From a virus, in IMG/VR virus record IMGVR_UViG_3300050011_000298, positions 1 through 59,098 of that record: a DNA stretch of 59,098 nt. One strand, 5' to 3'. Of this stretch, positions 1 to 55,639 are shown in pieces. A program made the position numbers and the translations under genes. The notes under the pieces were generated by a model. The model ran no database searches. It was not told where the DNA came from and was given only the letters and a program-made list of their open reading frames with translations. Numbering within the stretch: position 1 is the stretch's first letter; each line of letters begins with the position of its first letter.

Positions 1-3000
1 TGTCTGCGGCCTTTTTTGCGCCAGGAGCGACGGGTTCATTTTCCCCATCTTGGAGCACAGGCACTATGGGTATCACCGTCGCCCTCAAATCCGTCGGGAG
101 CGCAACGGTCCTTGTGGGTGTGAGTCCGCCAGTCGGAACTATCATGCGGGTCTATTATCATCTGCCCGCAGGTACTGGTCCAGGTTTCACTGGTCCGACC
201 GAGCCCATTTGGCCCACATCTATTGGCGGCATCGTCAACGACGGCGGAATTCAATGGACAAATTACGGGCCTGTCGAAGTCTGGTATCCGCAAACAAATT
301 ATCCAGTTCCTGTCGTGGTGTTGGATACGAACGGAAATTTGCAGCGCGCGGTTACTGCCACGAGTCCTGTACAGCCGTGGAATGCGGCAACTGGATATAC
401 TGTCGGGCAGATTGTTTCGTTCGGTGGGGGTTTTTGGATTAGCGTGTTTGCGGGAACCAATACAGGTGTTGCGCCGAGCAGTAATTATACGGTCCTTGTT
501 GGGGGGACGACAACAACCCCATATTGGGCTGTGGCGTCAAATCCCGCCGTCACAGGAGCCATCGCTCCAGTATGGAATACAAACGCCAACCCGCTGTTGG
601 GCAGCATCACGACCCAGGACGGCAGCTACACCTGGACCAACCTCGGGCAAGGTTCTCCGCTCGCGAGTTTCGGATATGCGTACGTCTACGCTTTCCGAAC
701 GGTGTACGGACATCTGACAACAGCAAGCCCGTTCAGCAACAATACTGGCGCGATTCTCGGACCACTGAACGGCAGCATTCAGTCGTTTTCCATCACCGCG
801 AATGTCGCGACGTTTTTCGGCAGCAACAACTTTATTCCTGGGAACATCTTTACGGTCGAGGGGTTGACGACAGGCACTTATTTTAACAACCAGATATTTA
901 CTGTCCTGACCGCACAACCGTCCTCCAGCTTTCCGTTGACCTCGACGCAAATCAGCGGCGGTACTACTCTAACCGTCAAAGCCATCAATCTTTTAGTCGC
1001 AGGACAGAGCGTGACATTCAGTAACTTGACGGACCCGAGCGCAACATGGCTGAACGGGTTGACGCTGATTGTGTCGGCGACAGGATTAAGCGGCACGCAG
1101 TTCGAAGTGACAGGGACATCTCCTCCTGCTGGAAACTACGGCCCGACGGCCACGACAGGCACAGTGCTCCTGAACGGAAGCTGGACTGCGACTTTCAACA
1201 ACGGTGGCGTGTTTGTACCGTTGACTTCGGATTCTGGGACTGCGGCTCCGCTTATCTCAACCATCACGGGCCAGGGCACATCTTTGCTAGATGGCCAGGG
1301 ATTTTCGTTGTGCAACTCCGTCGCAACCATCACAGGATTCTCAGTGACCGCGAACGTCCTGACGATTTTCGCCAGCAACAATTTCCAGCCTGGCATCTGG
1401 GTCACCCTCGGAGGTTTGACTACCGCGACGTTTCTGAACGGTCAGCAGTTCCAAGTCATCGCGGTAGATCAGTCGCTCGGAACCCAGAACACATGGTTTC
1501 AAATATTTTTTACGACTTCCGACTCGGTGCAGACGCTCGACGGAGGCACCGCTACATTCAACGCGGTGGAAATATATCGTCTCTCGGATGGCGGCGGCAC
1601 CTATTTGTTTGATGGCGCGGTCACGAACCCAGGCGCAGGAATTCAGTGGACCTTCGACGACTTTGTCATCGATCCTGATCTGGATATTCTTTTGATTGCT
1701 CCACTGTTCCATCAGAACGACCCGCCTCCTGGCGCACCTGGTTCATCCATTCCGCCGCTGGGCAAACCTGTAGGTACTATCAGCGTATACTGGCAGGGAC
1801 GGCTCTGGATGGTTGACGGAAACTATGTGTATTTCGATTCAGGACCAGATTGCACGAACGGTATTCCCGAGGAAGCGTGGGCTCCTGGGAATCGATTCAA
1901 GTTCTCAGGACCTGTGCTGAATCTGCAGCCAACTGCGGACGGCATCGGGATGCTTGTTTTCTTGGCCGACCGCGTGCAAGCAATTCTCGGCGGACCTGAG
2001 ACTATCAGCTTCTACGCTACAGATTTTTTGAGCAACTTCGGCGTTTCCAGTACGAACGCTGTCTTCCGCGACGGCTCGATTATTGGTTTGTTTACCACGC
2101 AGAAGCAGTACTTTGAATTGCTGGGCGCGCAGAAAGAAGATGTCGGGCTACATATTTCGGATTACTTGGCGACGAACGTCAATCCCGCCAAAGCGTATGT
2201 CACACTGCACCGTGACGGAACCGATGTGGGTTTATTCATCAGCAACGGCATAGACCGCATTTTGCGCTACGGGCCCAACGTCCCGTCATGGAGCGTTCCT
2301 GCGTTCCCATTATTCGGAGTAGGCGCGCTGAAATCGGTCGAGACATCGGTTGGAATTTATAGTTTACTGTTAGCGACGCCGACGGGCGGGGTGCGTCCGA
2401 CAAATCCGCAATTAGGGGTTGCAGCTACATACGCCCTTCTGGCGTGGAGCGGAATTACCAACACAGGCAGCACCGTGATTACGGGCGGCAACATCGGTTC
2501 GAGCCCGACCACAACCATTACAGGATTTCCTCCAGGCGTGATTATGTCCCCTGGGATTATCGACAATACCAACGCGGCTGCAGCGCATACGGCAGCGGTC
2601 GCGGCATACGCGCACTACGCTGGGTTGACATTCACCTCGCTCGGGACGGCTGTGAATTTGGCGACAAGCGGGAACGGCGCAAACAGCCATACATATCTTG
2701 CTGGAAATTATAGCTCAACATCCAGCTTCGACATCCCGAACACGTTCGGCGGGATAGTTCTTGATGCGCAAGGAAATGCGAACGCCCAGTTTGTGTTTTT
2801 CGCTGCGTCGACGACCACCCTCGAAGGCGGCTCGACCATCGCACTCATCAACGGCGCGCTTGCAAGCAACGTCATTTGGGTGGTCGGCAGTTCTTTCGTA
2901 TCCGTTGCGCCTTCGACTATGGTGGGGACAATCTTGGCGCAGATTTCTATCACACTGGGCGGCGGCACTTTTAACGGGATCGCATTGGCGGGCCTTGGCG

Positions 3001-3545
3001 GAAGTTCTGGCGCAGTGACAATCTCTACCGCCGAAATTATCTCGACAGGCAACACCCAGGCTCAATTGGACCAAGGGAATTATATCTATGTCCGCGATCT
3101 GACTTCATGGGGAGATGGCAACACCATAATCGGCGCCAACGACGGCACACCGTACGCACTTTGCGAAGTTGTCATCGGCAGCATCACGATGTCGCAACTC
3201 GGCGGAAAATTGTTCCCGTTGCAACATGTGATCGGATACTTCGACGCAGTCGGCACACTCAACCATGGCGGCCCGTCTTATCCCGACATCTGGGTGCTGC
3301 CGAACGAAGTCCAGCCCACCACCGCCGTCCCGTTTGTTTATTTGCCTGAGATTGTGCAAGAGCCCCCGACTGGGCAAAACAATCCGTCGTCCTCTATATT
3401 GGCGTTGAGGTGGAATGTATCAATGGTAAATAGTACACAGATGAGTCAGTATATTCACCACATGCAGTGCCGCGTTCGATTCGAGCCAGAAAACGCGCCG
3501 AATACAATCAAGGCGCTGGCGTTCGGTGAGGACCAATCGGTGTAA
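1..3545 (+). CDS. Large virion protein with inserted DUF3494 (ice-binding-like) domain, 5' partial
   Basis: The reading frame is open from base 3, so the true start lies outside the window; the first in-frame ATG is at 66 (1159 codons from there). Residue numbers count from that ATG. The N-terminal third has two related beta-rich repeats beginning near nt 786 and 1338 (core ITANV..FF.SNNF and VTANV..IF.SNNF). The middle (about residues 500-780) and the C-terminus read like a beta-propeller-type phage structural protein. Between them, residues about 783-995, lies a DUF3494-like domain: it starts LGVAATYALL, continues with GITNTGSTVITGGNIGSSPT and ITGFPPG, and ends with GTILAQISITLGGG. The flanks read across this insertion as one domain. 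Position before other + strand virion genes supports a tail or adsorption role; the exact part is not known. Confidence 0.8.
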   Translation, partial: SAAFFAPGATGSFSPSWSTGTMGITVALKSVGSATVLVGVSPPVGTIMRVYYHLPAGTGPGFTGPTEPIWPTSIGGIVNDGGIQWTNYGPVEVWYPQTNYPVPVVVLDTNGNLQRAVTATSPVQPWNAATGYTVGQIVSFGGGFWISVFAGTNTGVAPSSNYTVLVGGTTTTPYWAVASNPAVTGAIAPVWNTNANPLLGSITTQDGSYTWTNLGQGSPLASFGYAYVYAFRTVYGHLTTASPFSNNTGAILGPLNGSIQSFSITANVATFFGSNNFIPGNIFTVEGLTTGTYFNNQIFTVLTAQPSSSFPLTSTQISGGTTLTVKAINLLVAGQSVTFSNLTDPSATWLNGLTLIVSATGLSGTQFEVTGTSPPAGNYGPTATTGTVLLNGSWTATFNNGGVFVPLTSDSGTAAPLISTITGQGTSLLDGQGFSLCNSVATITGFSVTANVLTIFASNNFQPGIWVTLGGLTTATFLNGQQFQVIAVDQSLGTQNTWFQIFFTTSDSVQTLDGGTATFNAVEIYRLSDGGGTYLFDGAVTNPGAGIQWTFDDFVIDPDLDILLIAPLFHQNDPPPGAPGSSIPPLGKPVGTISVYWQGRLWMVDGNYVYFDSGPDCTNGIPEEAWAPGNRFKFSGPVLNLQPTADGIGMLVFLADRVQAILGGPETISFYATDFLSNFGVSSTNAVFRDGSIIGLFTTQKQYFELLGAQKEDVGLHISDYLATNVNPAKAYVTLHRDGTDVGLFISNGIDRILRYGPNVPSWSVPAFPLFGVGALKSVETSVGIYSLLLATPTGGVRPTNPQLGVAATYALLAWSGITNTGSTVITGGNIGSSPTTTITGFPPGVIMSPGIIDNTNAAAAHTAAVAAYAHYAGLTFTSLGTAVNLATSGNGANSHTYLAGNYSSTSSFDIPNTFGGIVLDAQGNANAQFVFFAASTTTLEGGSTIALINGALASNVIWVVGSSFVSVAPSTMVGTILAQISITLGGGTFNGIALAGLGGSSGAVTISTAEIISTGNTQAQLDQGNYIYVRDLTSWGDGNTIIGANDGTPYALCEVVIGSITMSQLGGKLFPLQHVIGYFDAVGTLNHGGPSYPDIWVLPNEVQPTTAVPFVYLPEIVQEPPTGQNNPSSSILALRWNVSMVNSTQMSQYIHHMQCRVRFEPENAPNTIKALAFGEDQSV

Positions 3546-14564: not shown

Positions 14565-14788
14565 GATTTCCTCCGTCGAGCTAGGATTATTCTTGCCCGC
14601 TTAATGTGGCGGCAAGGGGTGCGACGAAACAGGAACGATTCACACGAGCAAGCCCAACTGCGCCCTTGCTTTGTGACGGTATGATTGACACGGCCAGGGC
14701 GGGATACGCTCTGGACGGTGCCGTAAGCGATGACACCCTTGCGGGGTGCATCGGCGGTTTTCAGACTGAGTACTCTTGGGTTTTTCAT
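14561..14788 (-). CDS. SWIM zinc-finger-like small protein
   Basis: A 75-residue protein with the motif CSCESFLFRRTPCRHIKRA. This fits the CxC...CxH pattern of SWIM zinc fingers, which bind DNA or proteins. The N-terminus (GVIAYGTVQSVSRPGRVNHT) could form the strands that usually precede SWIM. Start ATG 14788 overlaps the upstream stop as TAATGA. Function in the phage unknown. Confidence 0.7.
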   Translation of the reverse strand: MKNPRVLSLKTADAPRKGVIAYGTVQSVSRPGRVNHTVTKQGRSWACSCESFLFRRTPCRHIKRARIILARRRKS

Positions 14789-15195
14789 TATCGTCTCACA
14801 ATCGGCTGACGGATAGAACCGTCAGAGTTATTTTCAAAGCGTCCGTAGCGGAAGCGGTCGCGGACCAGAACAGCAGCGTCGAACGTCGGGTCATAGATAT
14901 CGCCCGACATTTTCTTCCTGTCGACATTGCCATAACCTTTGATGCCGAAGATCAGACCAGACTCGATCTCGACCATGAATGCGCCCGACCCGCCGATGTC
15001 CAGCCGCGCGTACTTCGCGCCGAAGTGCCCGTAAACCTGGTCGGCGGGAAAACTGAAGCCCTCGATGCCGTAATGCTTTCCGTTGACGGCAGCCTGCCAC
15101 GCGGCGAGCACCGTTTCGTAGCGGTCGTACTGGGCTTGCGTGACAAAGGCTGGGATGGTTCCCGAAAGTCCGCCTACTTTGGTGTGTTTGGTCAT
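14788..15195 (-). CDS. Hypothetical 135-residue protein
   Basis: I chose ATG 15195 because GGAGA lies 8-9 bp upstream; an in-frame ATG at 15210 overlaps that site. The product (MTKHTKVGGLSGTIPAFVTQ; later GSGAFMVEIESGLIFGIKGY) is mixed alpha/beta and shows no motif I recognise. The sequence includes a Tyr-rich segment typical of small globular proteins. First gene of the tiny-gene run that extends to 13963; divergent from the tmRNA. Confidence 0.6.
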   Translation of the reverse strand: MTKHTKVGGLSGTIPAFVTQAQYDRYETVLAAWQAAVNGKHYGIEGFSFPADQVYGHFGAKYARLDIGGSGAFMVEIESGLIFGIKGYGNVDRKKMSGDIYDPTFDAAVLVRDRFRYGRFENNSDGSIRQPIVRR

Positions 15196-15216
15196 TTGGT
15201 TGTTCTCCATGCATAC

Positions 15217-15270: not shown

Positions 15271-15300
15271 TTGACAAGCAGTACGGAGGGTTGGTACTAT
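15271..15300 (+). promoter_or_regulatory. tmRNA promoter with AGTAC-N9-GTACT operator-like repeat
   Basis: TTGACA (15271-15276), 18-bp spacer, TACTAT (15295-15300). Between and overlapping the -10 lie AGTAC (15280-15284) and GTACT (15294-15298) with a 9-bp gap. The same arrangement occurs in the promoter at 24355-24383. Confidence 0.75.
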
Positions 15301-15306
15301 CGGGGT

Positions 15307-15780
15307 GTCACGAAAGTGACTGGTGGAGGACGAAATGGTTCCAGCGAGCGCGCTTGTCGAATGAAGACTATCCCGAGGACTGCAGCCAAGGGATGTGCTC
15401 GGTGTTCGAAAGACGCGCTCGCTGGGGCCGTTCCGCCCCAAAATTACGACCGTAAAACGGCTGGGGCTACTCATTTGGACGGGGCTGCAAAGCCCCCAGG
15501 TCCACCCTGCCGTCCAGCACGGATGTTCGGATGCCCAAAGGGCCGACGATCTAACCACTGGGCGGTACGGTGGGCCTGAATTAGTTTCGACAGATGAGAA
15601 TAGTGACAGTGCTTGTTCGGTTCGTCCTGACAACGACGTAAAACTAGATCAAACCTAAATGCGAAAACTAAACTCGCACAGGTTGTGATGTTCGCCAGTC
15701 GCACAAACGTGGCTTCGGCCCGACGTTTGGCAATGGCAGCATAACCACCGCCCGAGGTCGCCCGAAAGGTGGCCTCGGGA
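15307..15780 (+). ncRNA. ssrA: Circularly permuted (two-piece) tmRNA
   Basis: The gene order is permuted: the acceptor (3') piece comes first, then an intervening segment (about 15508-15571), then the coding (5') piece. GGGCCTG (15572-15578) pairs with CAGGTCC (15497-15503), giving a 7-bp acceptor stem with the G3-U70 wobble and A73 discriminator that identify alanine acceptors; ACC follows. GAATTAGTTTCGACAG is the D-domain signature. Helix P2 pairs AGATGAG (15592-15598) and TAGT (15601-15604) with GCTACTCATTT (15466-15476). GGAC precedes the T arm (15481-15496), as in standard tmRNA. A 12-bp perfect long-range stem joins the segments near 15340 and 15420. The tag frame (15661-15744) begins AKTKLAQVVM and ends SARRLAMAA-stop. 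Oddities: the T loop lacks TTC, and the encoded end is ACCC rather than ACCA. A strong hairpin (15751-15779) ends the gene. Confidence 0.88.
15661..15744 (+). other. Proposed tmRNA tag reading frame (27 codons)
   Basis: Resume codon GCG at 15661 and stop TAA at 15742-15744. The terminal residues RRLAMAA resemble proteolysis tags ending in A-x-A-A. A UUCG-capped hairpin (15704-15729, stems CAAACGT/ACGTTTG and GGC/GCC) lies inside the frame. The length is long compared with bacterial tags but similar to long tags known from some phage tmRNAs. The exact resume codon is an inference. Confidence 0.6.
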
Positions 15781-15790
15781 TTCTAATTTT
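15751..15790 (+). terminator. Hairpin terminator after tmRNA
   Basis: 12-bp stem 15751-15762 / 15768-15779 (two G-U pairs, loop CGAAA) followed by ATTCTAATTTT. The T tract is interrupted, so termination may be partial and allow read-through into the KTSC gene. Confidence 0.6.
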
Positions 15791-15802
15791 CAGGAGGTTT
15801 TT

Positions 15803-16033
15803 ATGCCCGCCCACAGATTTGATGGGTTCACGCCGCTCAGTTCAGACCACCTCGACGGAGTGAAGTACGATACGAATCAGCGGAAGATGACGGTCAGGTT
15901 TACGAACGGTTACCAATATATTGTCCACGGGATTTCGGCAGACTCCTACAATCAGTTCTTGGATGCACCATCGCACGGAACGCACTGGCACGCGCACATC
16001 AAAGACCAGTACCACGTCGAGCGCGTAAAATAA
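15803..16033 (+). CDS. KTSC-domain protein
   Basis: A 76-residue protein behind CAGGAGG. The pattern matches the KTSC domain: a start strand (HLDGVKYD), MTVRFTNGYQYIVHGIS, a helix (SYNQFLDAP), then SHGTHWHAHIKDQYHVERV. This is the NG..Y.Y..V....Y..F..A.S.G..F...IK..Y signature. KTSC was named for a link to lysyl-tRNA synthetase in some proteins, but its function in phages is unknown. It directly follows the tmRNA. Confidence 0.8.
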   Translation: MPAHRFDGFTPLSSDHLDGVKYDTNQRKMTVRFTNGYQYIVHGISADSYNQFLDAPSHGTHWHAHIKDQYHVERVK

Positions 16034-16981: not shown

Positions 16982-17539
16982 TCACGCCAGCACCAAATTG
17001 TCCATCGCTTCCTGCGCGAGTGAACCATCGTTCTCGGCCAAATAAACAAACGCACTTGAAGGTGACCGATGCAGAAGAAACTTGCTGACGGCGCCGATGC
17101 GCTGGGTCGTGTCGAAAACATGCATCGCCGCGCTATGGCGGAAGATATGGCTGTGCGCGTACAGGCTGTTGACGCCCGCTGCCGCGAAGTACTTGACCAG
17201 AGTTTCGTTGTAATATTGGCGCGAGAGGCCGCCGAAAATGCGCGAGAGGCCCTTCGTCTGCGCGAGCGCGACCAGCGGGGTCATGTCGAAGGCGGGGTCC
17301 ACGTCCAGGTGCAGCGTGTAGGTGCCTTCGTTACCGCGCTTCGCAGCGCGGATCAGGATAACGTACTTGCCTTCGCGCTCGAACACGTCTTCGCCGCGCA
17401 CATTCAGCATCTGCGAGACGCGCGCGCCCGTGAAGAACTGAAGCAACATCGCCATATGATGCAGGCTGCTCTTTTCTGTCCGCGCTTCGTACGCTGCTCG
17501 GAAGACTTTCGCAAGGTCCTGTTTGGCTAGGAACTTCAT
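16982..17539 (-). CDS. Tyrosine recombinase/integrase, catalytic domain only
   Basis: A 185-residue protein with the full tyrosine-recombinase signature: TGARVSQ (R40), K67 in AAKRGNEG, H131-x-x-R134 in HSHIFRHSAA, H157 in LLHRSP, and Y166 in SSAFVYLAEN. Family members are usually 300-400 residues; here the arm-binding and most of the core-binding N-terminal domain are missing. It may act on short sites, resolve genome multimers, or depend on partners. No attachment site is evident nearby. It has a dedicated GTAC-type promoter. Confidence 0.85.
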   Translation of the reverse strand: MKFLAKQDLAKVFRAAYEARTEKSSLHHMAMLLQFFTGARVSQMLNVRGEDVFEREGKYVILIRAAKRGNEGTYTLHLDVDPAFDMTPLVALAQTKGLSRIFGGLSRQYYNETLVKYFAAAGVNSLYAHSHIFRHSAAMHVFDTTQRIGAVSKFLLHRSPSSAFVYLAENDGSLAQEAMDNLVLA

Positions 17540-29107: not shown

Positions 29108-30025
29108 ATGAGCCGCTCAACGATCAGCGCTTTCAAACTCTTTGAGTTGTTCCCTGACGAGCCTTCCGCCCGCAAGTATCTGGAAGGTCGCCTCTGGCCG
29201 AATGGCGTTACCTGTCCTGAATGCAAGTCCAAAGAGCGGATCACGACGCGCAAGGACGGATTCTATCGCTGCAATGCCTGCAAACTGGACTTTACAGTGC
29301 GAACCAAGACTATCTTTGAACGGTCGCATGTTCCCCTGCATAAGTGGCTCTATGCCATGTATCTGCTCGTTACGGCCCGCAAGGGCATCTCTAGCCTGCA
29401 ACTGGGCAAAGAGATAGGTATCACTCAGAAGTCTGCTTGGTTCGTCCTACACAGGCTCCGTGAGGCTTGCGGAACCAAACTGGAGTTGCTTCAAGGTACC
29501 GTAGAAGTAGATGAGACATTCTTTGGTGGCGAAGAAAACAATCGGCATATGTACGACCGCATCCACAAACCGCGAGAGCGCACCGAAAAGACTATCGTAG
29601 TCGGGATGCGCCAACGCGGAGGGAACACCGTCGCCAAGATCGTGCCTAGCACTGGCGGACTGGCCCTTCGCGGTGCGATCCATGAGAATGTCGCACCCGG
29701 TTCCCGTATCTTGTCCGATGACTACGGCAGTTATACCGCCCTTCCGAAAGAGGGATTCCAGCACGATTCAGTAAAGCATGTTGCCGGGGAATACGTTCGC
29801 GGCGACGTTCACACGAACGGGATTGAATCCGTTTGGGCAGTAATGAAGCGCGGGATGCATGGCGTCTACCACCATGCCGATAAGAAGCACATGGGCCGGT
29901 ACGTGAATGAGTTTACATTCCGACTGAATCAAGGCAACGTGGCTCGGCACACAACAGAGCGGCTGGACAGTTTCGTGGACGCCATAGCAGGCAAGCGTTT
30001 GACCTTCGAGGCATTAACCCGATGA
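29108..30025 (+). CDS. tnp: IS1595-family transposase (ISXO2-like)
   Basis: A 305-residue protein. N-terminal zinc ribbon: CPEC (C36, C39) and CNAC (C55, C58). A helix-turn-helix-like part follows (LQLGKEIGITQKSAWFVLHR). The RNase-H fold catalytic triad is D135 in TVEVDETFFGG, D204 in SRILSDDYGSY and E240 in HTNGIESVWAVMKRG. The acidic third residue and the NGIE motif are typical of ISXO2-like/IS1595 transposases. Full length with all residues present, so probably active. It may also mobilise the transposase-less element at 51455. Confidence 0.95.
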   Translation: MSRSTISAFKLFELFPDEPSARKYLEGRLWPNGVTCPECKSKERITTRKDGFYRCNACKLDFTVRTKTIFERSHVPLHKWLYAMYLLVTARKGISSLQLGKEIGITQKSAWFVLHRLREACGTKLELLQGTVEVDETFFGGEENNRHMYDRIHKPRERTEKTIVVGMRQRGGNTVAKIVPSTGGLALRGAIHENVAPGSRILSDDYGSYTALPKEGFQHDSVKHVAGEYVRGDVHTNGIESVWAVMKRGMHGVYHHADKKHMGRYVNEFTFRLNQGNVARHTTERLDSFVDAIAGKRLTFEALTR

Positions 30026-35295: not shown

Positions 35296-36882
35296 ATGTC
35301 AAAGATAGTAAAGCATGGAGCAGATGCACGAGATGCGATTTTGCGCGGTGTGAATTTTCTCGCGGACGCGGTTTGTTTAACGGAAGGTCCGAGAGGCAGG
35401 ACCGCAATTCTCGGGCAACGTGCGTTAGGACAAACTCCTAGAGTGTCAAGGGATGGGGTGTCTGTTTGCAACTATGTGGATTGCGCCGACCCAACAGAGC
35501 AGATGGGGTCTGACCTTGTTCGCGAAGCCAGCCAGAAAACGGATAATATTGTCGGAGACGGCTCCACCGCCACCGTCACTCTCGCTCGCGCAATGATTCA
35601 ATCTGGTTTTGACTTCATCAAGAACGGTGCAAACCCTATAGCCCTAGAGCGCGGGCTGCAGAAAGCAGCACAAGCAATCATCCGCCGCGTGCAAGAAACT
35701 GCGGTGATATGCGAGGGTGAAAAAATTTTTCAAGTGGCGACGGTTGCGGCCCACGGGGATGCGGAGATAGGCCGCCTTGTATCCGACGCGGTTCAGAAAG
35801 CTGGGCCAAACGGTATTGTAACCGCCGAACCATCTTCCACATCTGAAACTTATGTCGAGACAGTAGCTGGAATTGAGTTGTTGAAGTCGAATCTTTTGCA
35901 CGGCGTTTTTATCACGCACCCTGAAACAATGTCGGCTGAACTGGCCGACTGTCGCATCTTGTTATGGGAGGGTGTGATTGCCACGGCGAAGTCACTCGTG
36001 CCGATTTTGAAACAAGTCGCAGAGACAGGCACCCCGCTGATTATCGTTGCGGGCGGCTATGAACAGGAAGCCTTATCGGTGCTCATCAACAACAAGGCGA
36101 AACTTGCCTTGCCGCTGATTGCCGTTCGGATGGAGGCATACGGAGAGCGCAAAAAAGAAGTTATGAGAGACATCGCCGCGTTGACAGGCGGTATAGCTTA
36201 CACCGAAGACATGGGGATGAAGATTGAAAGTATCGTCGTGAATAAACTTGGCTCTGCGCGCAAGGTCATCACGAATATGTCCAAGACCCAGATTATCGAT
36301 GGTAAAGGCAATCAAGCAGAAGTGGCTGGGCGCGTGGCGCATATTCAACAATGCATCGAGGCTGCCGCCCCTGCAGAGCGTAATCCCCTGCGCCAGCGTC
36401 TTGCGGCGCTACTCGGAGGCATTACCGTAATTAAAGTGGGCGACGTAACTCTCACGGCCATGGAAGAAAAGAAAGACCGCGTTGTTGATGCAATGTCTGC
36501 GGCGAAAGCTGCGGTCGAATCTGGAATCGTTCCTGGTGGGGGCACCGCATTAATGCAGGCGTCCACCATCCTCTTGGGGTTGCGTTTTTCAGATGCCGAG
36601 ATGCGCGGGGTAGATGTAGTGCATATCGCATGTCGGGCCGTAGCGAGACAAATTGCCGAGAACGCAGGAATCAGCGGCGACCTTATTGTGGCTCAACTGA
36701 TGGCAACACCAGACCTGGGATATAATGCGGCGTCCGAAGTATTTGAAAATCTCGTTGACGCGGGGATTGTCGACCCTGCACAGGTTGTGATTGAGGCTCT
36801 ACGAAACGCTGCCTCTGTCGCAGGAAGTTTCATCACTATGGGATGCACTGTCGCAGAGGTTCAGGAGAAGCCCAATGTCTAA
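35296..36882 (+). CDS. groEL: GroEL-like chaperonin (60 kDa subunit)
   Basis: A 528-residue Hsp60. Conserved segments: LTEGPRGRTA, SRDGVSV, the ATP-binding NIVGDGSTATVTLA, and the C-terminal nucleotide site AAVESGIVPGGGTALM with the preceding D of RVVDAMSAAK (equivalent of the catalytic Asp). The apical domain is present but diverged, and the protein lacks the GGM-rich tail of bacterial GroEL. Phage GroEL proteins fold phage virion proteins; here groEL, groES and terminase are in one operon with overlapping genes. The order groEL-groES is the reverse of the usual bacterial order, arguing against simple host pick-up. Confidence 0.95.
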   Translation: MSKIVKHGADARDAILRGVNFLADAVCLTEGPRGRTAILGQRALGQTPRVSRDGVSVCNYVDCADPTEQMGSDLVREASQKTDNIVGDGSTATVTLARAMIQSGFDFIKNGANPIALERGLQKAAQAIIRRVQETAVICEGEKIFQVATVAAHGDAEIGRLVSDAVQKAGPNGIVTAEPSSTSETYVETVAGIELLKSNLLHGVFITHPETMSAELADCRILLWEGVIATAKSLVPILKQVAETGTPLIIVAGGYEQEALSVLINNKAKLALPLIAVRMEAYGERKKEVMRDIAALTGGIAYTEDMGMKIESIVVNKLGSARKVITNMSKTQIIDGKGNQAEVAGRVAHIQQCIEAAAPAERNPLRQRLAALLGGITVIKVGDVTLTAMEEKKDRVVDAMSAAKAAVESGIVPGGGTALMQASTILLGLRFSDAEMRGVDVVHIACRAVARQIAENAGISGDLIVAQLMATPDLGYNAASEVFENLVDAGIVDPAQVVIEALRNAASVAGSFITMGCTVAEVQEKPNV

Positions 36883-40108: not shown

Positions 40109-41500
40109 ATGGCTCTTCAACAGGTAGTTCCGATATCGATGCTGATAGAAGGAGATGGCAGTTCAACTGTCTTCATCTTTGCGTTAGGCAATCTCTATCA
40201 AATCTCTTCAGGCTCAGCCGTTCCTTACGGAAATCTTGGAGCCGTGCCCACAGGTATCGTCGTCAGCGGTATTCCTCCTGTGCCTGTCACATCAGTAACA
40301 ATTGATGGGGTTGGAAATATTACCATCACTCTTGCCTCTGCGTTGGGTGCAGGGATTGTTCTGAACTTTGTTTTCAATCTCCTGTTTAATAGCGGGGACG
40401 TTTCTACGTTTCCTGCCGCAACACTAATCAGTGGCACCGTCGGCATTTCAAATTTTCCTGTCAGCCAGGCTGTGACGCTGGCGTCGACAACTATTACGGG
40501 TACGGTCGGCGTGACAGGCGCGTTCTTTCAAGCAACGCAGCCGATTAGTGGGGCAATCTCATTCACCGCGCCGCAGCATGTCATCAACGATGCCAGCGCA
40601 GCCGTCATCGGACATGTTATCAATGACGCTTCTGCGGCAGTCATCGGACATGTTATTTCCGATACGGGATCGGTGGTTGCTGTCTCCAATTTTCCTGCCA
40701 GCCAAGTCGTGACGTTGGCTTCCACCACAATCACAGGCAACGTCGCAGTCACTGGCGCGTTCTTCCAAGCTACCCAGCCAGTTAGCGGTGCGTTCTTCCA
40801 GGCTACGCAGCCAGTTAGTGGGGCATTTTTTCAGGCTGTACAGCCAGTAAGCGGTGCATTTTTTCAGGCAACTCAACCTGTTAGTGGCGCGTTCTTCCAA
40901 GCAACACAGCCAGTTTCGGTAGTAAGTGGAACTCTCACGTCCGTCACCGCCATCACCAATGCGCTGCCAGCGGGAACGAACGTCCTCGGGCACATCATCG
41001 TAGACAGCGGAACAATCACAGCCGTTACGGCAATCATCAACGCATTGCCGACAGGCGCCAATACCATCGGCAAGGTTGACATCCTCGGGAACGCGGGAGC
41101 GACACTGGACGCAGCCATCAACGGCGCCGCGTCAACGAACGCGCTATGGGCTATGCATGCCCCGTCAACAGCGGCAGCCGCAGCAATGGCAACACCAACG
41201 ACTATCGCGGCGCTGACTGTCGCGAACGTCAAAGCCTCGGCTGGAAACGTATACGGGATATCGGTGAACAATACGTCGGGCACGCCGATCTTTCTCCAGT
41301 TCTACAACACCGCAGGTACTCCTGTGCTCGGGACGAGCGTGATTTTCTCGATCCCCTGCGTCATCGGCATCACGAACATCCCGATTGCCCCGTTCGCGAT
41401 AGCAAATTTTGCAACAGGAATTGGTATCGGAGCATCGACATCCGCGCTCAGCACAGGTTCGCCATCAGTGCCTCCTGTTGTAACTATTTTCTTTAAGTAA
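40109..41500 (+). CDS. Fibre-like virion protein with 11-residue tandem repeats
   Basis: A 463-residue protein. Residues about 216-270 are five tandem copies of GAFFQATQPVS; a further GAFFQATQPIS lies earlier, and VINDASAAVIGH is repeated as well. These short beta repeats suggest a triple beta-helix or spiral shaft. The N-terminus (VVPISMLIEGDGSSTVFIFA) probably attaches to the virion. It shares style and strand motifs (SLASTTITGNV) with the preceding gene, so the two may be paralogous modules. Start is 2 bp after the previous stop. Confidence 0.7.
   Translation: MALQQVVPISMLIEGDGSSTVFIFALGNLYQISSGSAVPYGNLGAVPTGIVVSGIPPVPVTSVTIDGVGNITITLASALGAGIVLNFVFNLLFNSGDVSTFPAATLISGTVGISNFPVSQAVTLASTTITGTVGVTGAFFQATQPISGAISFTAPQHVINDASAAVIGHVINDASAAVIGHVISDTGSVVAVSNFPASQVVTLASTTITGNVAVTGAFFQATQPVSGAFFQATQPVSGAFFQAVQPVSGAFFQATQPVSGAFFQATQPVSVVSGTLTSVTAITNALPAGTNVLGHIIVDSGTITAVTAIINALPTGANTIGKVDILGNAGATLDAAINGAASTNALWAMHAPSTAAAAAMATPTTIAALTVANVKASAGNVYGISVNNTSGTPIFLQFYNTAGTPVLGTSVIFSIPCVIGITNIPIAPFAIANFATGIGIGASTSALSTGSPSVPPVVTIFFK
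40754..40918. repeat. 33-bp tandem repeats in fibre gene
   Basis: Five imperfect 33-bp units encoding GAFFQATQPVS (one has AVQ). DNA identity is lower than protein identity, so the array is older than the pentapeptide array. Confidence 0.85.
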
Positions 41501-43983: not shown

Positions 43984-44715
43984 ATGTTCATCTACGTCAT
44001 AGTTTGCAGCGAGACCCTGAAGATTTACGTCGGGCAACACAAGGGAACCAATCTGCAGAAATATTTGCAGACCAAGTTCTCAAACGCGAAGAGAAACTCA
44101 GGGACGCGGTCTCACCTTTTTGCGGCAATGAAAAAACACCCTCACGAATCGTGGAGCATTCATCCACTTATCTCAGGCGTTGAAATCAGACAAGAACTGG
44201 ATGAACTAGAAAAGCATTTCATCCGAGCGTTGAACGCACAACATCCCGATGTCGGTTATAACATCTGTGACGGCGGCGAAGGTTTCACGGGACCCCATAC
44301 AGAGAAGTGGCGACAAGAAACACTCACGCGAGTCAATGAGTATTGGGCAAATCCCGATAGTCGGATGCAGCGAAGCCAACAAACTACAGAACGCTGGCAA
44401 AGCGGCGAGCTACGAAAGGCGCACGAGATTTGGCGAGCAGAGAATCCAGAAAAGTTGGCATATTGGACGGATAAAAAACAGTCCGCCGAGTCCAACCAAA
44501 AACGCAGCGAGCAACAGAAAATATCTATGTTAGGGAACACGAACAGGCTTGGGCAAAAGCAGTCGCCTGAAGAAATAGCCAAGCGGGTCGCCAAATTGAA
44601 AGGTGTCCCGTTTTCCGACGAGCGCAAAGCCAAACTGAAAGCGTCGCACCAGACTTGCTCTTGTCCCGCGCATGTGCTGAAGCGTCAACAACAAGACTTC
44701 TTAACCCATAAGTAG
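43984..44715 (+). CDS. GIY-YIG homing endonuclease with NUMOD-type repeats
   Basis: A 243-residue protein. N-terminal GIY-YIG domain: MFIYVIVCSETLKIYVGQHK (Y-V-I...Y-V-G), then a conserved R (AKRNSGTRSHLF), an E in the LDELEKHFIRALNA helix, and VGYNICDGGEGF. A helical linker with repeated NUMOD3-like DNA-binding units follows (QKQSPEEIAKRVAKLKGVPF). It is flanked by promoter copies 8 and 9; copy 9 encodes its last residues and its stop codon is inside CATAAGTAG. Confidence 0.9.
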   Translation: MFIYVIVCSETLKIYVGQHKGTNLQKYLQTKFSNAKRNSGTRSHLFAAMKKHPHESWSIHPLISGVEIRQELDELEKHFIRALNAQHPDVGYNICDGGEGFTGPHTEKWRQETLTRVNEYWANPDSRMQRSQQTTERWQSGELRKAHEIWRAENPEKLAYWTDKKQSAESNQKRSEQQKISMLGNTNRLGQKQSPEEIAKRVAKLKGVPFSDERKAKLKASHQTCSCPAHVLKRQQQDFLTHK

Positions 44716-55563: not shown

Positions 55564-55639
55564 GGGCGTGTAGCTCAATCAGGAGAGCGCCGCATTTGCA
55601 ATGCGGAGGCAGTCAGGGCAGAACTGACCATGTCCACCA
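55564..55639 (+). tRNA. tRNA-Ala (TGC) with unusual T loop
   Basis: Acceptor GGGCGTG / CATGTCC with the alanine G3-U70 wobble, A73 and encoded CCA. Anticodon arm CCGCA-TTTGCAA-TGCGG gives TGC. T stem GTCAG/CTGAC is intact, but the loop is GGCAGAA instead of TTCRANY. D arm GCTC...GAGC is regular. Confidence 0.8.

Follow-up and report, generated by a model that had tools for sequence, protein, structure and literature searches.

A circularly permuted tmRNA gene with a lineage-specific long tag in uncultured tailed phages

Analysis of a 59,098-base virus record from IMG/VR (hereafter the window; records of its class have no end repeats and are often fragments) points to a circularly permuted ssrA gene that is autonomous and functional and has been passed down within a single lineage of uncultured tailed phages, a reading to which we give a probability of roughly 0.82. 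The locus appears autonomous and functional because it combines a promoter, a structured leader, both tmRNA pieces, a terminator, compensatory changes in its helices and a tag frame under selection. ARAGORN called a permuted tmRNA (tmRNA*) at 15416-15835, with the tag AKTKLAQVVMFASRTNVASARRLAMAA followed by a stop, and the Rfam model tmRNA_permuted (RF04321) matched 15448-15744 at 76.5 bits (gathering score 47, E 6.3e-13); six relatives scored 57-81 bits against the same model. The window reached 39.3 bits with the beta_tmRNA model (RF01850), below its gathering score of 84, and did not match the standard-form tmRNA model RF00023. An earlier note on this DNA had proposed a permuted two-piece tmRNA with a long tag frame and had named these programs as a check; both returned permuted calls (RF04321 above its gathering score, beta_tmRNA below), and together with the relatives and the covariation described below they strongly support the proposal. 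The parts lie in permuted order, with the T arm and acceptor 3' strand preceding the acceptor 5' strand and the tag frame at the end, and direct reading bore out the proposed succession of GGAC, T arm and acceptor strand. On sequence grounds we therefore regard it as confirmed that the window holds a genuine two-piece tmRNA gene of an uncultured phage. The note knew of no well-described phage example, which was wrong: the cultured marine methylophage Melnitz carries a two-piece tmRNA, and 53 of 133 unique phage tmRNA structures are two-piece (PMC9004378). A further study listed 79 phage tmRNAs and described RF04321 (PMC11915505), and dozens of further permuted phage tmRNAs in IMG/VR came to light in our pattern scan and model searches. 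Given these published and newly scanned cases, the tmRNA of this lineage is not the first phage two-piece tmRNA; the new part is its lineage-specific tag. The two pieces and the sequence between them comprise the following features.

15448-15507, + strand: core of the acceptor piece (direct reading, Rfam match, covariation)
15448-15452, 15460-15463 and 15470-15476, + strand: helix arms of the acceptor piece
15477-15480, + strand: GGAC
15481-15485 with 15492-15496, + strand: T stem, loop TGCAAA
15497-15503, + strand: acceptor 3' strand CAGGTCC
15504, + strand: A73
15505-15507, + strand: CCC
15507-15571, + strand: intervening sequence (folding; similar fold in all seven sequences)
15572-15660, + strand: 5' part of the coding piece (Rfam match, covariation)
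15572-15578, + strand: acceptor 5' strand GGGCCTG, pairing with CAGGTCC at 15497-15503 and including G3-U70
Coding piece, 3' of the acceptor 5' strand, + strand: D-loop-like GTTTCGAC
15592-15598, 15607-15610 and 15618-15622, + strand: helix arms of the coding piece
Coding piece, after the helix arms and before the tag frame, + strand: hairpin CGTC-CTGACAAC-GACG (PK1 region)

The acceptor stem GGGCCTG/CAGGTCC, with G3-U70 and A73, lies where it had first been placed, and G3-U70 and A73, the features of alanine identity, were invariant in the seven sequences. Helix P2 is formed by CTCATTT (15470-15476) and AGATGAG (15592-15598); the helix itself stands, at slightly less than the extent originally drawn (15592-15604 with 15466-15476). 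Two further helices join the pieces (15460-15463 with 15607-15610, and 15448-15452 with 15618-15622). Covariation was assessed in the window and six relatives over 29 pairs in five helices, namely the acceptor stem, the T stem and the three coding-acceptor helices. Paired cells made up 96.5 % over the seven sequences and both sides had changed in 18 of the 29 pairs. None of 500 shuffles was as high on paired cells and both-side changes, and the covariation score was 0.662 against 0.249 in shuffles; shuffle counts ignore relatedness, for which a slid control allows, and there, with partners moved by one to three columns, paired cells did not exceed 49.5 %. Four of the helices (acceptor, T stem, P2 and outer) were taken from the Rfam model and the earlier note; the fifth, which joins columns 13-17 to 99-103 in alignment A2, was chosen by eye from the same sequences, so that its share of the result leans towards fitting. 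Compensatory changes in the acceptor and P2 helices, whose absence among relatives was to have counted against the proposal, were thus present. In the second stem of PK1 the letters hardly varied among the sequences. A chance resemblance or tRNA artefact has next to no probability: we found no point in its favour, independent programs and the relatives speak against it, and the compensatory changes exclude it.

The encoded 3' end is ACCC (15504-15507), and the T loop of the window, TGCAAA, has six bases and no TTC, not the canonical seven-base loop with TTC at positions 54-56. Both peculiarities had been noticed before and are real, but altered charging, raised at that point as a possibility, does not follow from them: the gene is retained in relatives whose encoded end is ACCA and whose T loops are normal, and other tmRNAs of phages deviate likewise. 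Five of the six relatives have normal T loops and L168 has the six-base TTCGAT, which also occurs in the phage tmRNAs L232 and L235; L221 and L222 have GGCGGTA and GGCAGTA, so phage tmRNAs appear to tolerate departures in this loop. A gene-encoded CCC should be no obstacle either, as the permuted tmRNA of Hodgkinia is processed and receives its CCA by addition (PMC6581868). Ahead of TTTCGAC the window departs from its six relatives once more, with AG where they have GG; together with TGCAAA, this could make this one copy less active.

The mature ends predicted earlier, 15506 and 15572, agree at the level of sequence with the encoded 3' end and the acceptor 5' strand, and the intervening sequence (15507-15571) is presumably cut out of the mature RNA. 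In the predicted precursor fold, its long hairpin prolongs the acceptor stem through pairing of ACC (15504-15506) with GGT (15569-15571). This continuation was found in the full window fold and in five relatives folded alone, with one mismatch in L167, and by eye in L168; it looks general and is readable in other phage permuted tmRNAs too. Elsewhere in the window, a tRNA-Ala missed by ARAGORN (55564-55636, anticodon TGC, acceptor GGGCGTG/CATGTCC with G3-U70) has the T loop GGCAGAA, which like that of the window tmRNA is without TTC. The same tRNA-Ala has the T loop ATCATAA in the relative G007, whose tmRNA T loop has six bases, and a near-normal T loop in G009 and G019.

The tmRNA pieces are set in what appears to be a transcription unit of their own, with these parts.

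15271-15300, + strand: sigma-70-type promoter, TTGACA, 18 bases, then TACTAT preceded by TG
15307-15320, + strand: 5' hairpin GTCAC-GAAA-GTGAC, close to where transcription probably starts (reading and folding)
15322-15329, + strand: leader box GGTGGAGG, in all seven sequences, with one base changed in L168
15332-15434, + strand: leader helical domain, in which GAAATGGTTCCAGCGAGCGCG pairs with CGCGCTCGCTGGGGCCGTTCC
15751-15785, + strand: intrinsic terminator (stem of 12 pairs, T-rich tail), 6 bases past the tag stop

The promoter matched at 10 of 12 positions, and the scanned region held two sites against a shuffle mean of 0.4. By eye, TTGACA was also present upstream in L167, L168 and L169, which have other short hairpins at the position of the 5' hairpin. 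With the promoter at 15271 and the terminator at 15751-15785, the region marked in the earlier note therefore spans one transcription unit. The leader box GGTGGAGG is complementary to TCCACC of the acceptor end, where it may have a role. The inner arms of the leader helix were wholly different in L168, L170 and L171 and still paired, and the domain was missing or replaced in L166, L167 and L169; it is evidently optional, as these three have other or shorter leaders. A pseudoknot-like pairing within the leader (15370-15401) was found in the window only and is hence not claimed, and a match to the leader pattern on contig L178, which has no tmRNA there, was taken as a chance match in other sequence.

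A search with the terminase returned 45 related contigs, six of which, each of 74-98 kb, carried a permuted tmRNA. The non-carriers were mostly short fragments, with three records of 59-100 kb that lack the tmRNA; related contigs without the gene may be fragments. A KTSC-domain gene followed the tmRNA in all six relatives, and in the window a KTSC-domain protein (15803-16033) lies directly 3' of it. The gene at 14788-15210 and the recombinase gene at 16982-17539 were retained in several relatives, and the tmRNA locus looks like a stable, inherited one. The recombinase (- strand) is a tyrosine recombinase of 185 residues with the catalytic domain only, in which R, K, HxxR, H and Y are present. 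As ssrA genes are common attachment sites (PMC11915505), and as this enzyme is encoded about 1.2 kb from the tmRNA and conserved in several relatives, it might use the host ssrA as its attachment site, with the phage merely carrying a copy. We consider this very unlikely: the gene is complete and divergent in sequence, has its own promoter and terminator, and its exact core pattern is absent from the genomes of 84,980 bacterial and archaeal species, a search that yielded no host or donor. An attachment site normally bears just the 3' fragment of the gene, and a recombinase reduced to its catalytic domain also fits this explanation poorly. The preferred reading, an ssrA gene of the phage's own, is carried further by the tag frame.

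15661-15744, + strand: tag frame, resume codon GCG, 27 codons AKTKLAQVVMFASRTNVASARRLAMAA, stop TAA
15670-15693, + strand: tag core KLAQVVMF, constrained at the amino-acid level (pN/pS 0.25)
15694-15737, + strand: in-frame RNA hairpin, centre CAAACGT (15704-15710) with ACGTTTG (15723-15729)

Direct reading and ARAGORN both found the frame as originally described, ending in AMAA and a stop, and it has a resume codon and a hydrophobic xAA end ahead of the stop. Tags of the lineage have 24-27 residues and comprise a [KT][LM]A[QK]VxxF block, a variable middle and a C-terminal ALAA or AMAA; those of the six relatives are AKNKLAQVVMFAKRAVVVPARQYAMAA, AMPKKLAQVVMFAQRPAAFVPQALAA, VKPTKLAKVLMFARPAAFVPQALAA, AKRKLAQVIAFPGVFAVASARPQALAA, VKQTLAKVIEFVVPVRSRELAMAA and AKTKMAKVLAFPAMRTVAPARQFALAA. 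An eighth tag of the same kind, AKLASKVRAFVNGAFVPQFAACAA, is present in L234, where ARAGORN took another frame. For the eight-codon core, pooled pS was 0.73 and pN 0.18, with third positions varying in seven of eight codons; for the last five codons the values were 0.76 and 0.19, with variation in all five third positions. With pS close to saturation and the sequence pairs dependent on one another, these pN/pS ratios are a guide. Judged by these substitutions, both ends of the tag are conserved at the amino-acid level and the frame is under selection in seven sequences. This bears on the suggestion that the phage RNA is a decoy or inhibitor, competing for SmpB or AlaRS with the tmRNA of the host and so blunting host rescue, for which the tmRNA-like RNA of phage DS6A, an inhibitor of endogenous tmRNA when expressed in E. 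coli, is a precedent (PMC11915505). DS6A RNA has no tag frame, whereas here frame and stop are intact and selected, which a decoy would not need, and we regard such a role as very improbable. DNA and tag queries alike were without a match in the annotated phage collection, and in the open-access literature, outside which most subscription papers lie, tags of this type were the subject of no paper that we found. Little was found on the tags of phage permuted tmRNAs, though such tmRNAs are known, and the present lineage offers a defined, testable case for phage retargeting of stalled proteins.

The stretch 3' of the tag core had a predicted hairpin in every relative. In six of seven sequences the natural letters folded better than synonymous recodings of the same peptide; individual p-values (0.0005 to 0.6) are modest, and the combined p of 5e-5 is optimistic because the sequences are related. 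The L234 tag gave p 0.005 and three other long-tag phage families 0.002 to 0.034, and the long tag of L160 gave no hairpin signal (p 0.4). Long tags of marine phage families also bear in-frame hairpins. Support is thus good, not overwhelming, for a tag middle that encodes peptide and RNA hairpin together. Distinct ARAGORN tags at the examined loci had lengths of 9-14 and 24-30 residues, plus a misread 20. Tag length itself is not new, since recorded tags have 8-35 residues, and in ordinary tmRNA helix 5 opens during translation of the tag (PMC3968760). The long tag is most simply explained by a helix-5-like helix that sits entirely inside the frame; peptide-constrained ends and an RNA-constrained middle would give a simple reason for phage tags of 24-30 against 9-14 residues.

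The steps of tmRNA action, namely processing by RNase P and tRNase Z, alanylation, SmpB binding and release at the tag stop, are established (PMC3985003, PMC3968760), and the phage RNA may be expected to follow them. The intervening hairpin would be excised by RNase P and tRNase Z of the host, or by different nucleases, to leave two paired RNAs, a host enzyme would complete the 3' end to CCA where just CCC is encoded, and the host alanyl-tRNA synthetase would charge the RNA via G3-U70. No SmpB was found on the 12 phage contigs searched, so host SmpB is presumably used. With it and EF-Tu, the charged RNA would, in the course of infection, enter ribosomes that have stalled on broken mRNA; alanine would be added first and the 27-residue tag after it, and the ribosome would be released at the stop codon. 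The length of the tag would follow from its hairpin, the probable counterpart of helix 5 in ordinary tmRNA, lying wholly within the frame. Most likely, the terminal ALAA/AMAA acts as a degradation signal of the ClpXP type. The probable contact of the conserved first block is an adaptor, a protease or the ribosome, and the phage may benefit from ribosome recycling during mRNA degradation.

The first half of the tag, basic and hydrophobic, is conserved at the amino-acid level across the lineage and, unlike most other phage tags found here, does not start with AND(E/N). This conservation lends some weight to the different fate for tagged proteins raised in the earlier note: KLAQVVMF might serve as an address that directs stalled nascent chains to a particular protease, adaptor or phage structure. 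A precedent is the long tag of Mesoplasma, which Lon recognises in place of ClpXP (PMC9382460). We hold such a special fate to be possible but unlikely: the ALAA/AMAA end suits ordinary recognition by ClpXP, a search of 12 phage contigs yielded no member of the SspB family, and the block has been linked to no partner. Quite unlikely, in our estimate, is the fuller version, in which the tag has two domains, the ribosome reads it through an RNA hairpin within the frame, and KLAQVVMF gives stalled proteins a non-ClpXP fate via another protease or a phage component.

Set beside known systems, the phage ssrA gene of the window resembles that of Melnitz and its relatives in being phage-encoded, permuted and two-piece. 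Melnitz, a marine myophage, carries a glutamine riboswitch and an ssrA of alphaproteobacterial type (PMC9004378); the window, in contrast, has a betaproteobacterial best clade model (below cut-off), an SU10-type portal and no matched riboswitch. It shares with RF04321 and RF01850 the order of parts, the tRNA-like domain, G3-U70, GGAC-T arm, GTTTCGAC and the PK1-region hairpin, but differs in its extended leader, the hairpin within the tag frame and a terminator 6 bases past the tag stop, which leaves no space there for a second pseudoknot. The L062, L101 and L107 families are likewise phage-borne and permuted, with tags of 24-30 residues and an in-frame RNA hairpin, but their tags begin AND, ANF or ANE and have an unrelated middle; L221 and L222 share a T loop without TTC. 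The Mesoplasma florum tag is also long, with a distinct degradation route via Lon, but is bacterial, unrelated in sequence and ends in NYAFA (PMC9382460). DS6A RNA is also a phage-encoded tmRNA relative, but one without a tag frame (PMC11915505).

A single weak match to the terminase came from the annotated phage collection, and the 463-residue protein at 40109-41500, used as a query, returned mostly distant relatives. One of these, G047, has a permuted tmRNA (L235, at 44026-44283) whose tag is short and unrelated; by eye this tag seems to be ATEKPMVMAAAAGR, where a ClpXP signal could be weakened by GR after the alanines. Neither the SU10-type portal nor the GroEL gene of the phage in the window indicates a host; its GroEL (35296-36882, 528 residues) has at most about 40 % identity to GroELs of the annotated phage collection. 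The window also contains an IS1595-family transposase with a zinc ribbon (29108-30025), an insertion element in a phage, and a 1159-residue protein (66-3545) with an ice-binding-like domain (PF11999, residues 792-991), which is unusual for a phage.
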